Source: an uncultured Schlesneria sp.
Lineage (GTDB): Bacteria > Planctomycetota > Planctomycetia > Planctomycetales > Planctomycetaceae
Direction: 5' to 3'
DNA length: 64,000 nt
Assembly (NCBI GenBank): GCA_903834925.1
Contig: CAILLA010000281.1
Span: 1-64,000, forward strand
Position 1 is the stretch's first letter; every line of letters begins with the position of its first letter. Both the position numbers and the translations under genes were made by a program. This document shows, piece after piece, positions 4,815 through 54,443 of this stretch. A model generated the notes under the pieces. That model searched no databases and was not told the origin of the DNA. It saw only the letters and a program-made list of their open reading frames with translations.

Positions 4815-7736
4815 ATGCCAAAAAAATCGTGGCTCACGAATCTTTATCGCCGATTAGCGATTCCATCGGTACGTTCGCGACGAATCCGTCGGCAATCCGG
4901 GGACACGCGTTCGGCGATTGTCGAACACCTCGAATCGCGAAAACTGCTGACAACCGTCGTTGGCCCTGCAGCTCCGACGGTGATTGAAGTCCTTCAAGGA
5001 TCGGGTCCGGTCGTCGTTCATTCGGGAGACCGATTGACTGTGTCGATTCCTTCGTTGTCGGTGGTCTTTTCTGAAAATTTGAATGCCGTTCCCGGTGGGG
5101 CAAACAGTGTAACGAATCGTTCCAATTGGGATCTGACTCGTTACGGAGTCGATATCAGTGATCAGATTTCGGGGATCACGTTCGGTCAAGACCCCCATAC
5201 AAACCAATATGTGGCGCGCGTGTCGTTCGCCCATCCGCTTTCGGAAGGTGGATATCAGCTTGTCGCATTACAAACGATTCAAGATCTTTCTGGCTATCCC
5301 TTGAATGGAGATGGCAATAGCGTAAACGGTGCCGATTTTCACTGCGTCTTTGCGGTTGCTACGACCGTCCCTGCCGGTTCGGAACAAAGAGTGAACACGG
5401 TCACTGGAGGTAATCAGACGCAGCCTGCCGTAGCGATGGATGTCCATGGCGACTATGTTACAGTCTGGTCGAGCTACGGTGAAGATGGCAGTGGCTATGG
5501 CGTTTATGCTCAACGTTACAGTTCCGACGGAAAGGCTCAGGGAGGCGAGTTTCGAGTCAACTCATATACGGCCGGGTATCAAGGGACGGCGGCTGTTGCC
5601 ATGGATGCTGCGGGCGACTTTGTTGTGACATGGGAAAGTTTTGGCCAGAGCGGCCCAGGGAGCGGTATGGGCATTTATGCTCAGCGATATAATGCCGCTG
5701 GAGTCGCTCAAGGGTCTGAATTCCATGTCAATACGTACGGGACATTGGGTCAGGAAAGTCCTTCAGTGGCGATGGATGCGGCAGGTGATTTCGTGATCGC
5801 CTGGTGGAATCGAACTTCGGCTCCAAATGGATATGGGTGTTATGCTCAGCGGTATAACGCAGCGGGAATTGCACAGGGAACCGAAACCAAGGTCAACACA
5901 CCAATCGCTGGCTACTATGACAATTCCTTTTTGCCGAAAGTGGCAATGGATGCTGTTGGTGACTTTGTCGTCACGTGGACTCAGCAACCATTCTCGGGAC
6001 TGTCAAGCACAATTGCACAGCGTTACAACGCTTCTGGAGCACCCCTGGGAAGTGCGTTTGTTGTTTCTCCGCCCGACAGTGGAAGCAATTCACCTGTGAT
6101 CGCGATGGGCGCCGCAGGCGATTTTATCATCGCCTGGGACCATCCAGAGCCCGTCGGTGGTGGCATCAGCATCTACGCTCGACGATACAATTCGTTGGGA
6201 GTTGATCAAGGCCTGTTTCCCGTGACCGATTCGACAACGGTCAATCAAATTACGCCCGCAGTTGCCATGGACGCGGTGGGAAATTTTGTTATCGCCTGGC
6301 GTAGTCTCGGCCCGGGTTATCATTACTATGCAAAGCGATATGACAATACGGGGACCGCTCTCAGCCCTGAATTCCAGGTCAATACAACCTATGCGGGGTA
6401 TGCCTCAACGGATCCTCCAGCTGTTGCCGTCGATAATTCGGGTGATTTGATCGTCGCCTGGCGGGACGACGTGCAGGATGGAAGTGGTTCGGGAATTTAC
6501 TCACAGCATTACCTGGCTGATGTGGCACCTGTGCTCTCTCAAATCGAGTCGATTCCAGTCGTTGACGTTGCACCCTTGGCGGTACCCATCACTTCGTCGC
6601 TGCTAGTTTTCGATTACGACAGCAATAACCTCACGGGGGCGACGATCCAAGTTAGCGGCAACTACCAACCTGATCTCGACCGACTGGTCTTTGCAAACGC
6701 CAGCACACCAAAAATTACGGCCAGTTGGAATGCAGTCACGGGAACGTTGACGTTGTCAGGGCAGGACTCGGTTTCGGACTATCGGACCGCGCTGCGCAAT
6801 ATTTCCTTCCAGAATGTCTATCCCGCTCTCAATACGTCGCTGTCTCGCTCAATCAGTTTTCAAGTGACTGACGGTTTGTTGTCCAGTAATGTGGTCTCGC
6901 GGAATGTGACTATCGTCGTTCCGCCGACGCTTTCCGGAACTGTTGATAAGTTAAGCTACATCGAGAAAGCCGTACCGCTGTTCATCGCACCGAATCTCGT
7001 TGCAAGTGACCCCAACAGCGTGAATTTTGTCAGTGCCGCGATCTCATTCGTGAACTGGCAAGCCGAAGATCGACTGAGTTACACGAACCTATTCGGTCTA
7101 CAGGCGTCATTCAGTCAGGATCTTGTGGCACATACCGCCAGCCTCACAATCACGGGCAACGACACGATCGCTCACTATCAGGCGATGCTGAGATCGATTG
7201 GGTATTACGACATCAGTTCCAATCCAGTTACGACACCTCGATCGGTCAGTATTGCGGCCACTGACGGAGTTTTCACAAGCAACAAGTTGAACGTCAGTGT
7301 TTCCGTAACGAGTGTCAATGATCCACCATTGTTATCAGGTATCGAATCGTCACCACTGATTTACAAGGCGAATGCGGCCCCGCAGTCGATCTCTTCGACG
7401 GTTCAAGTCAGTGACCCTGACAGCAACTATCTGACAAAATTAACCGTCCAAATCACGGCCGGATACCAGAATAACTCCTCTGGCCATGACGTTTTGTCGT
7501 TTAAGAATCAACTCGGCATCACCGGAATATTTGATTCTTCTTCGGGCACTTTGACGCTTTCTGGTTTTAGCAGCCTTTCGAACTATCAAACAGCGCTGCG
7601 TTCGATTCAGTTCAATACATCCGGAAGAACGATCAGCGGAGCGACCCGTACGCTTACGATTGTGGCAACCGATAATTACTTGCCGACACCTGCGACCAGC
7701 CTTCCCATCACTCGCAATATCACAGTCCAGACTTAG
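4815..7736 (+). CDS. LEPR-motif surface protein with propeller-like and cadherin-like repeats
   Basis: A 973-residue exported protein. The start at 4815 is chosen over an upstream in-frame ATG at 4725 because it directly begins a basic leader (MPKKSW) leading to LESRKLL at residues 39-45, the LEPR-type motif found near the N-terminus of large planctomycete surface proteins. Residues about 187-567 hold about eight units of roughly 50 residues with the recurring pattern AMDAxGDFVVxW, then YAQRYN, AAGxAQG and VNT; these look like beta-propeller or integrin-type blades. From about 570 to the end are three cadherin- or Calx-like units carrying the pattern SDPDSxxLT and LSGxxSLSNYQTALR. Adhesive or structural function on the cell surface is inferred. 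No enzyme motif is visible. Confidence 0.8.
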   Translation: MPKKSWLTNLYRRLAIPSVRSRRIRRQSGDTRSAIVEHLESRKLLTTVVGPAAPTVIEVLQGSGPVVVHSGDRLTVSIPSLSVVFSENLNAVPGGANSVTNRSNWDLTRYGVDISDQISGITFGQDPHTNQYVARVSFAHPLSEGGYQLVALQTIQDLSGYPLNGDGNSVNGADFHCVFAVATTVPAGSEQRVNTVTGGNQTQPAVAMDVHGDYVTVWSSYGEDGSGYGVYAQRYSSDGKAQGGEFRVNSYTAGYQGTAAVAMDAAGDFVVTWESFGQSGPGSGMGIYAQRYNAAGVAQGSEFHVNTYGTLGQESPSVAMDAAGDFVIAWWNRTSAPNGYGCYAQRYNAAGIAQGTETKVNTPIAGYYDNSFLPKVAMDAVGDFVVTWTQQPFSGLSSTIAQRYNASGAPLGSAFVVSPPDSGSNSPVIAMGAAGDFIIAWDHPEPVGGGISIYARRYNSLGVDQGLFPVTDSTTVNQITPAVAMDAVGNFVIAWRSLGPGYHYYAKRYDNTGTALSPEFQVNTTYAGYASTDPPAVAVDNSGDLIVAWRDDVQDGSGSGIYSQHYLADVAPVLSQIESIPVVDVAPLAVPITSSLLVFDYDSNNLTGATIQVSGNYQPDLDRLVFANASTPKITASWNAVTGTLTLSGQDSVSDYRTALRNISFQNVYPALNTSLSRSISFQVTDGLLSSNVVSRNVTIVVPPTLSGTVDKLSYIEKAVPLFIAPNLVASDPNSVNFVSAAISFVNWQAEDRLSYTNLFGLQASFSQDLVAHTASLTITGNDTIAHYQAMLRSIGYYDISSNPVTTPRSVSIAATDGVFTSNKLNVSVSVTSVNDPPLLSGIESSPLIYKANAAPQSISSTVQVSDPDSNYLTKLTVQITAGYQNNSSGHDVLSFKNQLGITGIFDSSSGTLTLSGFSSLSNYQTALRSIQFNTSGRTISGATRTLTIVATDNYLPTPATSLPITRNITVQT

Positions 7737-7862: not shown

Positions 7863-8927
7863 ATGATTCGAGACATTTACCAGGACCAACCACAACCGTT
7901 GCAATTGCAACCGTCGTCCCCTGATATTTTGACTCCGTTGAAGCGGCTGATGATCGGGACAGTCCAAGTCGGCTTCCCGGTCGTCCAGGCGGCACTGAGT
8001 GGTTATAGTGATGGTCCCATGCGGATTGTCGCGAAGCGATTGGGGGCGAGTTACACTCTTGCCGAAGTCATGATTGACCGGTTCGTACTCGATCTCAAAT
8101 CGCGTCATCGCACTCGGCGACATCTTCTGGTCACCGATGAAGAACATCCGGTCGGCGGCCAACTGATGGGTTCAGAACCCGCTGATTTTGGACCCGCCGC
8201 ACAGAAGCTGGTTGGTGCCGGTTTCGATGTCATCGACATCAATTTCGGGTGCCCAGTCAAATCCGCTGCCGGAGCGTGTCGAGGCGGATTCCATCTCAGC
8301 CAACCGGATATCGCCCTGGAAATCGTCAGTCGGACCCGTGACGCCGTTCCTGATCACATTCCTGTGACGCTGAAGATGCGACGCGGTGTGGATGATTCGA
8401 CCGAGAGTCGTGATCGGTTCTTTCAAATCCTTGATGGAGCGTTCGAGCGAGGCGTTTCTGCGATCACGGTCCACGGCCGAACGGTCGAACAGAAATACAT
8501 TGGCCCGAGTAACTGGGATTTTCTTCGCGAAGTGAAACAACACGCGGGATCAAAGACGATCCTCGGTAGCGGCGATCTGTTCACGGCGCAGGCCTGTATC
8601 GACATGTTTCAGAAAACGGGCGTCGATGGCGTATCGGTGGCACGCGGAGCCATCGGCAATCCCTGGATTTTTTCACAGGTCAAGGCGTTGGCGTCAGGTC
8701 TTCCGATGCCGGAACCCGGTTTGATCGAGCAACGTCGGGTGATGGAGCTTCAGTTCGAACTTTGTGTGCAAGTGAGCGATGTTCCGCAGGCACTGACGAC
8801 GATGCGAATGTTCGGGATGAAGTTTGCGCAGTTGCATCCCCAATACGAGGATGTTCGCAATGCCTTTGCAGCTTCAAAAAGTATTGAAGATTGGAATGGT
8901 GTCCTTGATCAGTGGTATCGTCGATAG
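7863..8927 (+). CDS. tRNA-dihydrouridine synthase family protein
   Basis: A flavin-dependent TIM-barrel enzyme that reduces uridines in the tRNA D-loop. Visible family signatures are VIDINFGCPVK, whose Cys (residue 130 from this start) is the catalytic proton donor, ITVHGRTVEQKY, and the phosphate-binding end GVDGVSVARGAIGNPWIF. The start is uncertain. ATG at 7863 gives 354 residues; ATG at 7950 (MIGTVQVGFPVV) would put the catalytic Cys at residue 101, closer to family members, and may be the real one. Between the catalytic Cys and the next conserved Gly the sequence SAAGACRGG differs from the common KV...GxGAALL, so subfamily (A, B or C) is not assigned. It stands alone between the surface protein and a repeat element. 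Confidence 0.85.
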   Translation: MIRDIYQDQPQPLQLQPSSPDILTPLKRLMIGTVQVGFPVVQAALSGYSDGPMRIVAKRLGASYTLAEVMIDRFVLDLKSRHRTRRHLLVTDEEHPVGGQLMGSEPADFGPAAQKLVGAGFDVIDINFGCPVKSAAGACRGGFHLSQPDIALEIVSRTRDAVPDHIPVTLKMRRGVDDSTESRDRFFQILDGAFERGVSAITVHGRTVEQKYIGPSNWDFLREVKQHAGSKTILGSGDLFTAQACIDMFQKTGVDGVSVARGAIGNPWIFSQVKALASGLPMPEPGLIEQRRVMELQFELCVQVSDVPQALTTMRMFGMKFAQLHPQYEDVRNAFAASKSIEDWNGVLDQWYRR

Positions 8928-12036: not shown

Positions 12037-12075
12037 CGGGGACACTGCTTTTTTTGCGAAAAAGCAGTGTCCCCG
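12037..12075. repeat. Perfect 17-bp stem hairpin
   Basis: CGGGGACACTGCTTTTT at 12037-12053 pairs with its perfect inverse at 12059-12075 across a 5-base loop. No U-run follows the stem on either strand, so it is not a typical terminator. It sits upstream of dapL and just left of the 10-bp repeat element. Confidence 0.75.
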
Positions 12076-12189
12076 AGGTTTCTCGATTTTCCTATTGACG
12101 AGCGTGTTGTATTGTTGTAGTTTTATGTCGTGGTTTTGTTGTGTTACTAACGGCGGGCGTTTCGTCGTCGTTCATCGCTCCAAATAACT

Positions 12190-12218
12190 CGCTTCTCTTC
12201 GAGGCGCGGTTAAACGAT
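12190..12218. repeat. 29-bp dispersed repeat, copy 1
   Basis: The 29 bases starting CGCTTCTCTTCGAGG are repeated without mismatch, inverted, at 15744-15772. They fall in the part of the 10-bp-array element that is absent from its second copy, so they probably belong to an inserted sequence. Confidence 0.8.
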
Positions 12219-12263
12219 ACGTTTGGACGATGAGTGGGTCCTGACAAAAACGGGGACAAGAAT

Positions 12264-12283
12264 CCCGGGATTAACATCCCGGG
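12264..12283. other. Hairpin A of a covarying pair
   Basis: The stem CCCGGGAT pairs with ATCCCGGG across a TAAC loop. With its flanks (ACAAGAATC before, CTCGC and TTGG after) it is nearly identical to the stretch at 12463-12499; apart from one base in the right flank, they differ only at two stem pairs, both changed on each side so that pairing is kept. Confidence 0.8.
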
Positions 12284-12469
12284 CTCGCTTGGATTATTGG
12301 AAATCACAACCTGACGACGACAATTGATCTTTGAGATCTTGGAATGAAATTTAATCGGGCTGCCCCGGCGTCGACTTGAGGCGCTGCGCGATCCGTGGCG
12401 GTTCGTTGTTTGCCTTGGCGGGCGGAGCGTGGTTGGTAGCGGGCGGCGGTCGGAAAATTCAACAAGAAT

Positions 12470-12489
12470 CCAAGGATTAACATCCTTGG
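12470..12489. other. Hairpin B of a covarying pair
   Basis: The stem CCAAGGAT pairs with ATCCTTGG across the same TAAC loop as hairpin A. The C-G and G-C pairs of A are A-T and A-T here, a double compensatory change. It lies 17 bases before the ATG at 12507 that opens the array frame. Confidence 0.8.
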
Positions 12490-12510
12490 CTCGCCTGGGA
12501 GGAAACATGG

Positions 12511-12610
12511 GATTCGAACTTGATCGAACTCGATCGAACTCGATCGAACTCGATCGAAGTCGAACGAAGTCGAACGAAGTCGAACGAAGTCGAACGAAGT
12601 CGAACGAAGT
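12511..12610. repeat. Ten tandem 10-bp units (TCG-N3-GAA type)
   Basis: Ten uninterrupted 10-bp units, first of the type CGATCGAACT, then CGAACGAAGT repeated five times. Every unit has the same phase. A 45-residue frame (12507-12644) runs through the array and ends in CTATGA. Confidence 0.9.
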
Positions 12611-12690
12611 CGAACACGGCGGAAAAATGGATAAAAGCCTATGAATTATGGGGAATGGTCGAAGTCGGTCGAACTTGATCGAACTTTGAC

Positions 12691-13020
12691 ACCAAATTTC
12701 TCGGAACCATGAATCCAGCAGAATGGAAGAGAAGATTTTGAACAAAAGGAAACGAAGTTAATGAAGTGAAGAGAAAGCAGACACGGAGGATGCCGCCAGA
12801 ACTGTCCGGGAAGCTCGGGGTGGAGGCTTCCTTCCGAATTCCTTTGTTCCCTTCGTTAACTTCTGTTCAATGGTATTTGTATTTCCAGACTTTCTACCCG
12901 TTTCGGCTCGCCGTCCCGATGATAAGGCGACAAAAGATGAAGTTGGCCAACCTCAAACTTTCAAAAAATGCCTATAAAAAAGGAACTTGGCCAACTTTGC
13001 CAACTTGGTCAACTATTTTC
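12691..13020. other. Intergenic repeat mosaic
   Basis: No gene. It holds AACAAAAGGAAACGAAGTTA near 12740 and a partly inverted version near 12840-12868, and TTGGCCAAC near 12945 and again near 12990 followed by TTTGCCAACTTGGTCAAC. These look like decayed dispersed repeats. Confidence 0.5.
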
Positions 13021-13215
13021 GAAGATGCAAATCGAACGAAATCGGCTTTCGGATAGAATTAGAACGGTGAACGATATCGAAGTCGGTTGAAATCTGGTGA
13101 ACTCGCGCGAAGTCTGGTGAACTCGCTCGAACTTGTTTGCGACGAAAATGACGACGAAATCCTATGAAATACGGCAGTTGGTCGAAGTCGCGCGAACTTT
13201 TCAATCAAGTTTCAC
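13021..13215. repeat. Dispersed 10-bp-array element, degraded copy 2
   Basis: From 13061 to 13130 the sequence keeps a strict 10-bp period (units ending in GA: AGTCGGTTGA, AATCTGGTGA, ACTCGCGCGA, AGTCTGGTGA, ACTCGCTCGA). It is followed at 13161 by CCTATGAAATACGG and TGGTCGAAGTCGCGCGAAC, the 3' module of copies 1 and 3. The 5' half is not recognisable. Confidence 0.7.
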
Positions 13216-13365
13216 AGCAGACTTGATCACAGCAAAAATGGCGAAAAGTTTCTTGAATAGAAGTGGTGCGCAAACCTGACATCAGTATGAAGTTGACTGA
13301 CAACCAGGCGTAGCACATCAATCGCTGATGTCGACACTCGTATCAATTAATTTCAAAAGAAATTA

Positions 13366-13470
13366 GCCACAGATCCACACAGATCAAGAGGAATAAATCC
13401 CATGAAAAACACTGGTTTCTGTAAGTTTGTATTTTGCATTTATCCGTGTGGATCTGTGTTCATCTGTGGC
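13366..13470. repeat. Inverted repeat with GCCACAGAT arms
   Basis: GCCACAGATCCACACAGAT at 13366-13384 matches the inverse of 13452-13470 at 17 of 19 positions, about 67 bases apart. Similar 'CACAGAT' repeats are familiar from many bacterial genomes. I see no gene inside. Confidence 0.7.
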
Positions 13471-13736
13471 AAATTCTCTTCGCTTTCGCATTAAGTTCGG
13501 GGAATCGTTGACGGAATTATTCGGTGATGGAAAACGTGGGTAAAGACCAGTGTACGAACATCGGAGAGGCTTGTGGTGCCATTTTGGCAGTTGTGATTCA
13601 GTTCGACTGATGCTGCCGCTCATAAATTTCCGGCATTTTTGACACATGGGACATGGCGCGCCAGTTGCTTTTCATCCTTCCACGCGGTCGATGGACTGCC
13701 TTTCTGTTTCGATGTTGATTGCTTTTGGAGTTCCCC

Positions 13737-53226: not shown

Positions 53227-53775
53227 ATGAGTAAACGGATCGTCACGATCAGCAAATTCATGAGCAAGTATCTTCGGCATGAACCAGAGGCACTTGGTTT
53301 GAATTTGGAACCGGGTGGCTGGGTGTTGATCGCTGACTTGTTGGAAAGTGCCGGGAAACACGGATTCACAATCACCAATGAAGAACTTCTTCAAGTCGTC
53401 GCTGAAAATGACAAGAAACGATTTGCTCTCGATGAAACAGCAACAAAAATCCGCGCGAACCAAGGGCATTCGACTTCTGTTGATTTGCAGCTTGCTGAAG
53501 CGGAACCGCCGCCTCAACTTTTTCACGGCACTGTCAGCAAGTTTCTCGACGCGATTCTGGTCGAGGGATTGAAGAAAATGGACCGTCACGACGTACATTT
53601 GTCGAAGGACGTCTTGACGGCGGCCAAAGTCGGTGAGCGACGCGGGAAACCGGTGATCCTGGTTGTCGATTCGGGGGCGATGGCATCAGACGGCTACAAG
53701 TTCCGGCTCTCTGAGAACGGAGTCTGGCTGACAGATCATGTTCCGCCAAAGTACATCCGGTTAATGGATACGTAG
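53227..53775 (+). CDS. kptA: RNA 2'-phosphotransferase
   Basis: A 182-residue KptA/Tpt1 protein, which uses NAD+ to remove an internal RNA 2'-phosphate and releases ADP-ribose 1'',2''-cyclic phosphate. The N-terminal winged helix has SKYLRHEPEALGL (Arg17-His18) and EPGGWVLIADLL; then KIRANQGHST with the conserved Arg and His; the ADP-ribosyltransferase half has LFHGTVSKFLDAILVEGL, VHLSKD, and ends with ENGVWLTDHVPPKYI. Length fits the family (about 180). The bacterial role is still unclear, as most bacteria lack tRNA splicing of the eukaryotic type. GAGAGCAAC precedes the start. Confidence 0.93.
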   Translation: MSKRIVTISKFMSKYLRHEPEALGLNLEPGGWVLIADLLESAGKHGFTITNEELLQVVAENDKKRFALDETATKIRANQGHSTSVDLQLAEAEPPPQLFHGTVSKFLDAILVEGLKKMDRHDVHLSKDVLTAAKVGERRGKPVILVVDSGAMASDGYKFRLSENGVWLTDHVPPKYIRLMDT

Positions 53776-53857
53776 GGGCCAAAGGCTCAAATGATCACAA
53801 AACCACACATTTCATGAGCACCTTCCAAACATTACGACGAATTTCGCGTATTGTCTA

Positions 53858-53887
53858 TTGACAATATTTAAAGATATTTTGTAAATA
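53858..53887 (+). promoter_or_regulatory. Candidate sigma70-type promoter at the head of element copy 3
   Basis: TTGACA at 53858-53863, an 18-base very A/T-rich spacer, then TAAATA at 53882-53887. It points into the repeat element and toward the 45-residue frame at 54193. The -35 is a perfect consensus; the -10 is weak. No other sequence supports it. Confidence 0.35.
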
Positions 53888-54200
53888 ATATGGCGCGTGT
53901 TGTGTTCTTGTCTTGGCGGGAATGAAGAATCCGTCTAATGAGTCTCAGGATTAGCATCCCGGACTTACCTGGATTTCGCAAAAAAATAAGAACTGACGAC
54001 GAACTTGATCTTTGAAAAATTGGAACGAATTGAATACGGAACGCTCCTGCAGCCGTCAACAGCAGCGGGCTTGTCCGTGCGGTTTCGTTGTTTGTCTTGA
54101 GGAGGGCGCCGAAACGGCGAGAGAGTCGTTCTGAGAAAGTCTTGAGTAGACAGTTCAGGAAGGGACACCGCCAGGCTCACCAAGGAGCAATGATGGGATT

Positions 54201-54290
54201 CGAACTTGATCGAACTGCGTCGAACTCGATCGAACTCGATCGAACTCGATCGAACTCGATCGAACTTGGTCGAACTTGGTCGAACTCGAA
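54201..54290. repeat. Nine tandem 10-bp units (TCG-N3-GAA type)
   Basis: Units CGAACTTGAT, CGAACTGCGT, four copies of CGAACTCGAT, two of CGAACTTGGT, and CGAACTCGAA, with no phase break. A 45-residue frame (54193-54330) crosses the array and ends CTATGA, the same length as the frame in copy 1. Confidence 0.9.
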
Positions 54291-54443
54291 CACCCCAAAA
54301 AACGTAGAAATGATTGCCAAAACCCTATGAATTACAGGGAATGGTCGAAGTCGCGCGAACTCGCTCGAACTTTTCGATCAGATTTGTTGGCGTGTGACGG
54401 AGCGTGGGGAGTCACGCATCACGAAGATCGTCAACAAGGTTCC

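Follow-up and report, generated by a model that had tools for sequence, protein, structure and literature searches.

The 10-bp repeat arrays described here appear, on balance, to be internal cassettes of a larger non-autonomous element, about 0.6-2 kb long, which is dispersed between genes, has its own promoter and, judged from its sequence, would most likely encode a structured noncoding RNA. The initial annotation of the window, by which we mean the whole 64,000-nucleotide stretch of uncultured Schlesneria DNA that was analyzed, listed three loci (12092-12690, 13021-13215, and 53855-54376) with shared arrays of 10-bp units. All three arrays were confirmed in the sequence, with exact 10-bp chains of 10, 4, and 9 units, respectively. 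The three loci amount to two units, as the first two form one transcription-unit-like island in which the second locus is a second cassette, and the third belongs to a second unit. The element reaches far 5′ of the array, where it takes in a structured domain and a promoter, and the window holds two such larger, one-strand intergenic units at about 12090-13220 and 53810-54390 (Table 1). A gene for a KptA/Tpt1-type RNA 2′-phosphotransferase (PF01885; window 53227-53775) ends just 5′ of unit 2.

The repeat first written as TCG-N3-GAA(C/G) is real, but its better consensus is Y-G-A-A-S-T-Y-R-N-N; the 10-bp unit can be read as an imperfectly self-complementary octamer, TYRNNYGA, followed by A(C/G). 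A 3′ module, CCTATGAAWTA...TGGTCGAAGTCG, was found at 3/3 window loci. This module had been described as continuing the phase of the array. Its phase is indeed constant, with 55, 55, and 65 bp from the last array unit to the first module unit in the three window copies, but it is offset by half a unit, and the array phase is therefore not simply continued.

Table 1. Parts of the two units in the window.
Feature	Position	Strand	Basis
Unit 1 promoter: -35 TTGACG, 17-bp spacer, -10-like TAGTTT	12095..12123	+	Read against 78-leader consensus
D1 structured domain, unit 1: UUGAUCUUUGA...GGAAU, hairpin, GGCGGUUCGUUGUUUG	12320..12412	+	Covariance model, 93.6 bits; stem pairs counted
Array of ten 10-bp units (copy 1)	12514..12613	+	Sequence, unit chain count
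Core CCTATGAATTA and 3′ module (three-unit hairpin), copy 1	12630..12699	+	Module scan, folding
GAA module (GAACAAAAGGAAACGAAGTTAATGAAG)	12739..12768	+	Pattern in order across many islands
9-bp-unit sister element: AAGTTGGCC arms flanking core GCCTATAAAAAAGGAA, T-rich 3′ end	12940..13019	+	
Unit 1 second cassette (copy 2): subtype B array, core, 3′ module	13078..13215	+	
L1 leader box of unit 2, TTTCATGAGCACCTTCCAAACATTACGAC	53810..53838	+	
Unit 2 promoter: TTGACA, 18-bp spacer, TAAATA	53858..53887	+	Read against leader consensus
D1 structured domain, unit 2	54001..54094	+	Covariance-model match, 79.3 bits
Array of nine 10-bp units (copy 3)	54200..54289	+	Unit chain count
Core and 3′ module of copy 3	54316..54385	+	Module scan, folding

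A search of the genome and its relatives, as the initial annotation had suggested, returned many intergenic copies with a conserved module and a variable number of units. Within 3 mismatches, the 3′ module occurs at 53 places in the window's own genome (G000; 9.0 Mb in 307 contigs), far above chance, as the reversed-pattern control gave 0. Three sister Schlesneria genomes carry 53-99 module copies each, and 191 distinct copies were gathered from the four related genomes, all counts coming from fragmented MAGs in which repeats fall at contig ends. Other members of the genus have 0-1 places in the same scan, and at most one or two copies in all, and an exact-pattern scan of GTDB contigs gave matches only in MAGs labelled as uncultured Schlesneria. 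In the four genomes the L1 leader was counted 55, 39, 53, and 69 times; elsewhere in the genus there are 0-3 chance-like matches, G006 being the exception with one unit built in the same way.

When about 70 islands were oriented by the module, their parts lay on a single strand in the same fixed order, which begins with the L1 leader and D1 (L2-L3), passes through optional hairpin modules to the core cassettes, and closes with GAA, a 9-bp-unit TTGGCC hairpin, and END. The core cassettes number one to four per island, usually at distances of 220-300 bp, and END, a GTAG-tagged REP hairpin, is often present at the 3′ side of the unit. Units with context sit between long ORFs, and the units have no long conserved ORF themselves. 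A coding role for the arrays was rejected, as every 10-bp unit moves the reading frame and the ORFs that span units show no conservation.

Other repeats were noted alongside the units. Further dispersed families of short-unit hairpins (CACGAAAAC..., ACACAGAG..., CCTATAAGTCC..., and GAGTAGTGAGTAGA...), seen at window positions 12040-12075 and 13360-13475 and at many other loci, partly serve as modules inside units. A MITE-like dispersed element with the ends CGTTTAACC/GGTTAAAC (L131 about 6775-6810 and 8240-8295; L168) often lies directly 3′ of the unit promoter. Finally, about 20-bp arrays of GAGCACCTTCGTGTTGGTT (or CTCAAGCCTGACGAAGGTG) were found at L156 1800-2040, L307 4340-4480, and L035 1685-1779, and their start resembles the L1 box.

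The 5′ end of the units combines an upstream box with a predicted sigma-70-type promoter at a fixed spacing. The distance from the start of the L1 match, which contains the box TTCCAAACGTTAAGAA, to the TTGAC downstream of it is exactly 39 bases in 78 of 107 leaders, and the consensus of these 78 aligned leaders has a conserved -35 and a conserved, TA(T/A/G)TTT-like -10, between which the 17-base spacer is mostly free. This upstream L1 box is absent from window unit 1. A generic consensus promoter scan of the window listed neither unit promoter, and the argument for a promoter therefore rests on conservation across copies. An operator dyad within the promoter was ruled out, as GCGACA and TGTCG do not covary, and the protein genes 3′ of a few L1-only matches looked unrelated or chance.

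Upstream, on the same strand, 6 of 113 leaders have an integron integrase gene or a remnant of one. Two are complete, scoring 432-433 bits against a cut-off of 265; the distance to L1 is about 200 bp for G000:C151 and about 610 bp for G001:C182. One is cut by a contig end (G000:C296), and C-terminal remnants precede units at G005:C141, G000:C160, and G000:C293. The two complete proteins (G000:C151:60-1007 at L117 and G001:C182:728-1675 at L338) share 95.9% identity across two species. In the window's own genome, 4 of the 5 integron-type integrase loci are linked to a unit, the fifth (C276) being without one, and L1 has a conserved GTTAAGAA adjoining intI.

The units might be sought among decayed integrons, as remnants of same-strand chromosomal platforms (intI, attI, promoter, cassettes) that have multiplied across the chromosome and whose array cassettes are ORF-less and moved by IntI. 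The six integrases or remnants directly upstream, their tie to units in most own-genome loci, and the serial, co-oriented cassettes would all fit such an origin, and same-strand integrons have been described for Treponema (PMC3607928). We nevertheless consider it unlikely, given that 107 of 113 leaders show no integrase trace, that the cassettes are without ORFs, that inspection of cassette ends by eye for RYYYAAC...GTTRRRY gave no convincing attC, and that other genus members with an integron integrase are without the family. As an integrase is absent from most units and an attC was not recognized, we treat the integron link as a lead and not as an identification; the units are possibly integron-linked, as putative transcribed, non-autonomous mobile elements.

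The reading of the units as templates for a structured RNA draws on two of their domains. In D1, 89.8% of the cells of the outer stem are paired, compared with 25-49% when the stem is slid, and 0 of 500 shuffles reach this value; compensatory changes are present, and at the column pair 44-84, AU, GU, CG, and UA all occur. A covariance model of D1 gave at least 40 matches in each of the four genomes and, among 93 other genomes of the order, nothing beyond 3 marginal ones. The 3′ module, when compared with shuffles, folds with a mean z of -1.35 on the + strand and -0.22 on the - strand, its variable dinucleotides are paired at 0.788 versus 0.498 in shuffled sequence, and among the dinucleotide pairs GT occurs 20 times and AC never. 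The module thus folds on the + strand only and admits G-U pairs yet no A-C, an indication of RNA. Part of this covariation is confounded by a split of the module into subtype A (AT) and subtype B (CG), which the 5′ array within each copy shares; the 5′ array itself folds about as well on one strand as on the other. RNAalifold on MAFFT alignments returned no consensus structure, so model R1 is sequence-only and pairs were counted directly instead. E-values throughout are rough, as the calibration was short. Searched against Rfam at E up to 1, four island loci gave only weak sub-threshold matches, and the whole window gave none at gathering scores. Two sub-threshold matches to Acido-Lenti-1 RNA were seen at L106 14578-14638 and 15024-15084.

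The initial annotation had proposed, as one reading, that the arrays act at the DNA level, with a protein on every 10-bp unit on one face of the helix and cooperative binding or bending as the function. Their regularity is compatible with this: over 191 distinct copies, array size runs from 1 to 14 units in strict 10-bp steps, 708 unit-to-unit spacings are exactly 10 bp, and the spacing from array to module is quantized (55, 65, 76, 86), in phase 5-6 in 134 of 151 copies, and tighter than the next spacer downstream. However, the same units contain a sister array family that has a nearly identical 20-nt core (AAAAGCCTATGAAATACGGAA) but is built of 9-bp units, and the spacer in that family changes in steps of 9 (43, 52), albeit in a small sample of about 26-27 spacers. 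That spacers step by each family's own unit length argues for gain and loss of units over helical phase, and the strand-specific folding and G-U tolerance favor RNA over a protein-binding DNA array. Helical phasing as the organizing rule is thus not supported, and we regard a helically phased array as improbable.

Comparison of occupied and empty sites bears on how the units came to be dispersed. In G001, G002, and G005, the sites that correspond to those of the two window islands lack them, and the flanks there are about 79-90% identical. The L131 site is likewise empty in three relatives. At L114 a unit is present in G001 and G002 but not in G005, and at L116, of the three relatives, only G005 has one. 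The absence of the window units from three relatives, together with the mixed pattern at other sites, therefore indicates that units spread by insertion. In the shared L116 unit, identity is 81% over core and module, 77% over the following 3′ modules, and 86% in the flanking coding DNA, and the 5′ modules differ; at 81%, orthologous copies are no closer than random pairs (median 79%). We found no target-site duplication or fixed 3′ end, and neither terminal inverted repeats nor a target-site duplication was visible at the window and L131 junctions, where divergence of the flanks keeps the ends from being placed. As protein partners, a four-helix-bundle protein (PF05635) was rejected because its loci are without the modules, and reverse transcriptases because they are present in 15/15 genomes of the genus and so do not track the family.

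The same data bear on a multi-copy regulatory RNA, in which the units would be host genes under selection whose RNA titrates a protein or regulates in some other way, and their spread only a side effect. Promoter and D1 are conserved in all copies, and an orthologous unit can be aligned across species where the surrounding spacers cannot, both as this explanation would have it. Yet sites are polymorphic, the whole family is missing in close relatives, and a conserved target or partner gene was not found; we think it quite improbable. Simple slippage, which would make the arrays unstable tandem repeats without function, remains valid for the variation in unit number (1 to 14) and fits the likeness of adjacent units within one copy, but it is refuted as a full account, with hardly any probability left to it, since dispersal, fixed part order, the conserved promoter, and hairpin covariation are left unexplained.

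The proposed promoter-bearing RNA element can be compared with known systems. As the initial annotation had surmised, the family is undescribed as far as Rfam and the literature searched extend: no family in either resembles these units, and no phage or plasmid matched them, an origin from either being rejected. With 191 copies and no Rfam match, the family is neither confined to the window nor one that Rfam names. REP or GTAG-tagged palindromes are high-copy, intergenic, associated with RAYT transposases, and reported in planctomycetes (PMC3733652). The units share with them the high-copy intergenic palindromes, and the END module, which bears the GTAG tag and has CTAC directly after its stem in 32 of 58 copies, is itself a GTAG-type REP. 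Unlike these units, however, REPs are 20-40 bp long and have no promoter or variable array. The core and D1 hairpins have no consistent GTAG/CGTC tag, none standing beside the palindrome of the core/3′ module in 157 of 191 copies, and a Y1 transposase (RAYT) was rejected as a partner because its loci are not beside units: among 10 matches in the own genome, just one, a weak match on C84, lies close to a unit.

Chromosomal integrons and CALIN resemble the units in the same-strand upstream integrase at some units and in their serial, co-oriented cassettes. The units differ in having no cassette ORFs, no recognized attC, mostly no integrase, and 50 or more separate loci per genome. MITEs are likewise short, noncoding, dispersed, intergenic, and present or absent between relatives, but in the units no terminal inverted repeats or target duplication were found, and there is an internal promoter and a structured RNA domain. 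The short tandemly repeated repetitive (STRR) sequences of filamentous cyanobacteria, with 7-bp units, are also dispersed arrays of very short units in variable number. We know of no conserved 3′ module, promoter, or hairpin domain in STRR units, which are set apart here by description only.

For the element as we read it, the imperfect self-complementarity of the octamer, together with A(C/G), would allow an array of any length to fold on itself. Slippage would change the number of units, tandem duplication would multiply the cassettes, and an enzyme supplied in trans would spread the whole unit. The best candidate for this enzyme may be the integron integrase found upstream of some units, in which case the L1 box could, as a conjecture, serve as an attI-like site. 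Taken this far, the units would constitute a new class of mobile element, namely a promoter-driven noncoding RNA unit with exchangeable tandem hairpin cassettes built of short self-complementary arrays, spread genome-wide when an integron integrase acts on the leader. We put this forward tentatively, as something that is possible but that we would not ourselves bet on.

The core common to the 9-bp and 10-bp families offers a starting point for understanding how arrays of this kind originate and change, and the host planctomycete genomes are full of unnamed short-array repeats. In these genomes a clade-restricted, noncoding element with a putative promoter of its own reaches dozens of copies, and, if the integrase link is true, integrons could scatter noncoding units over a chromosome.
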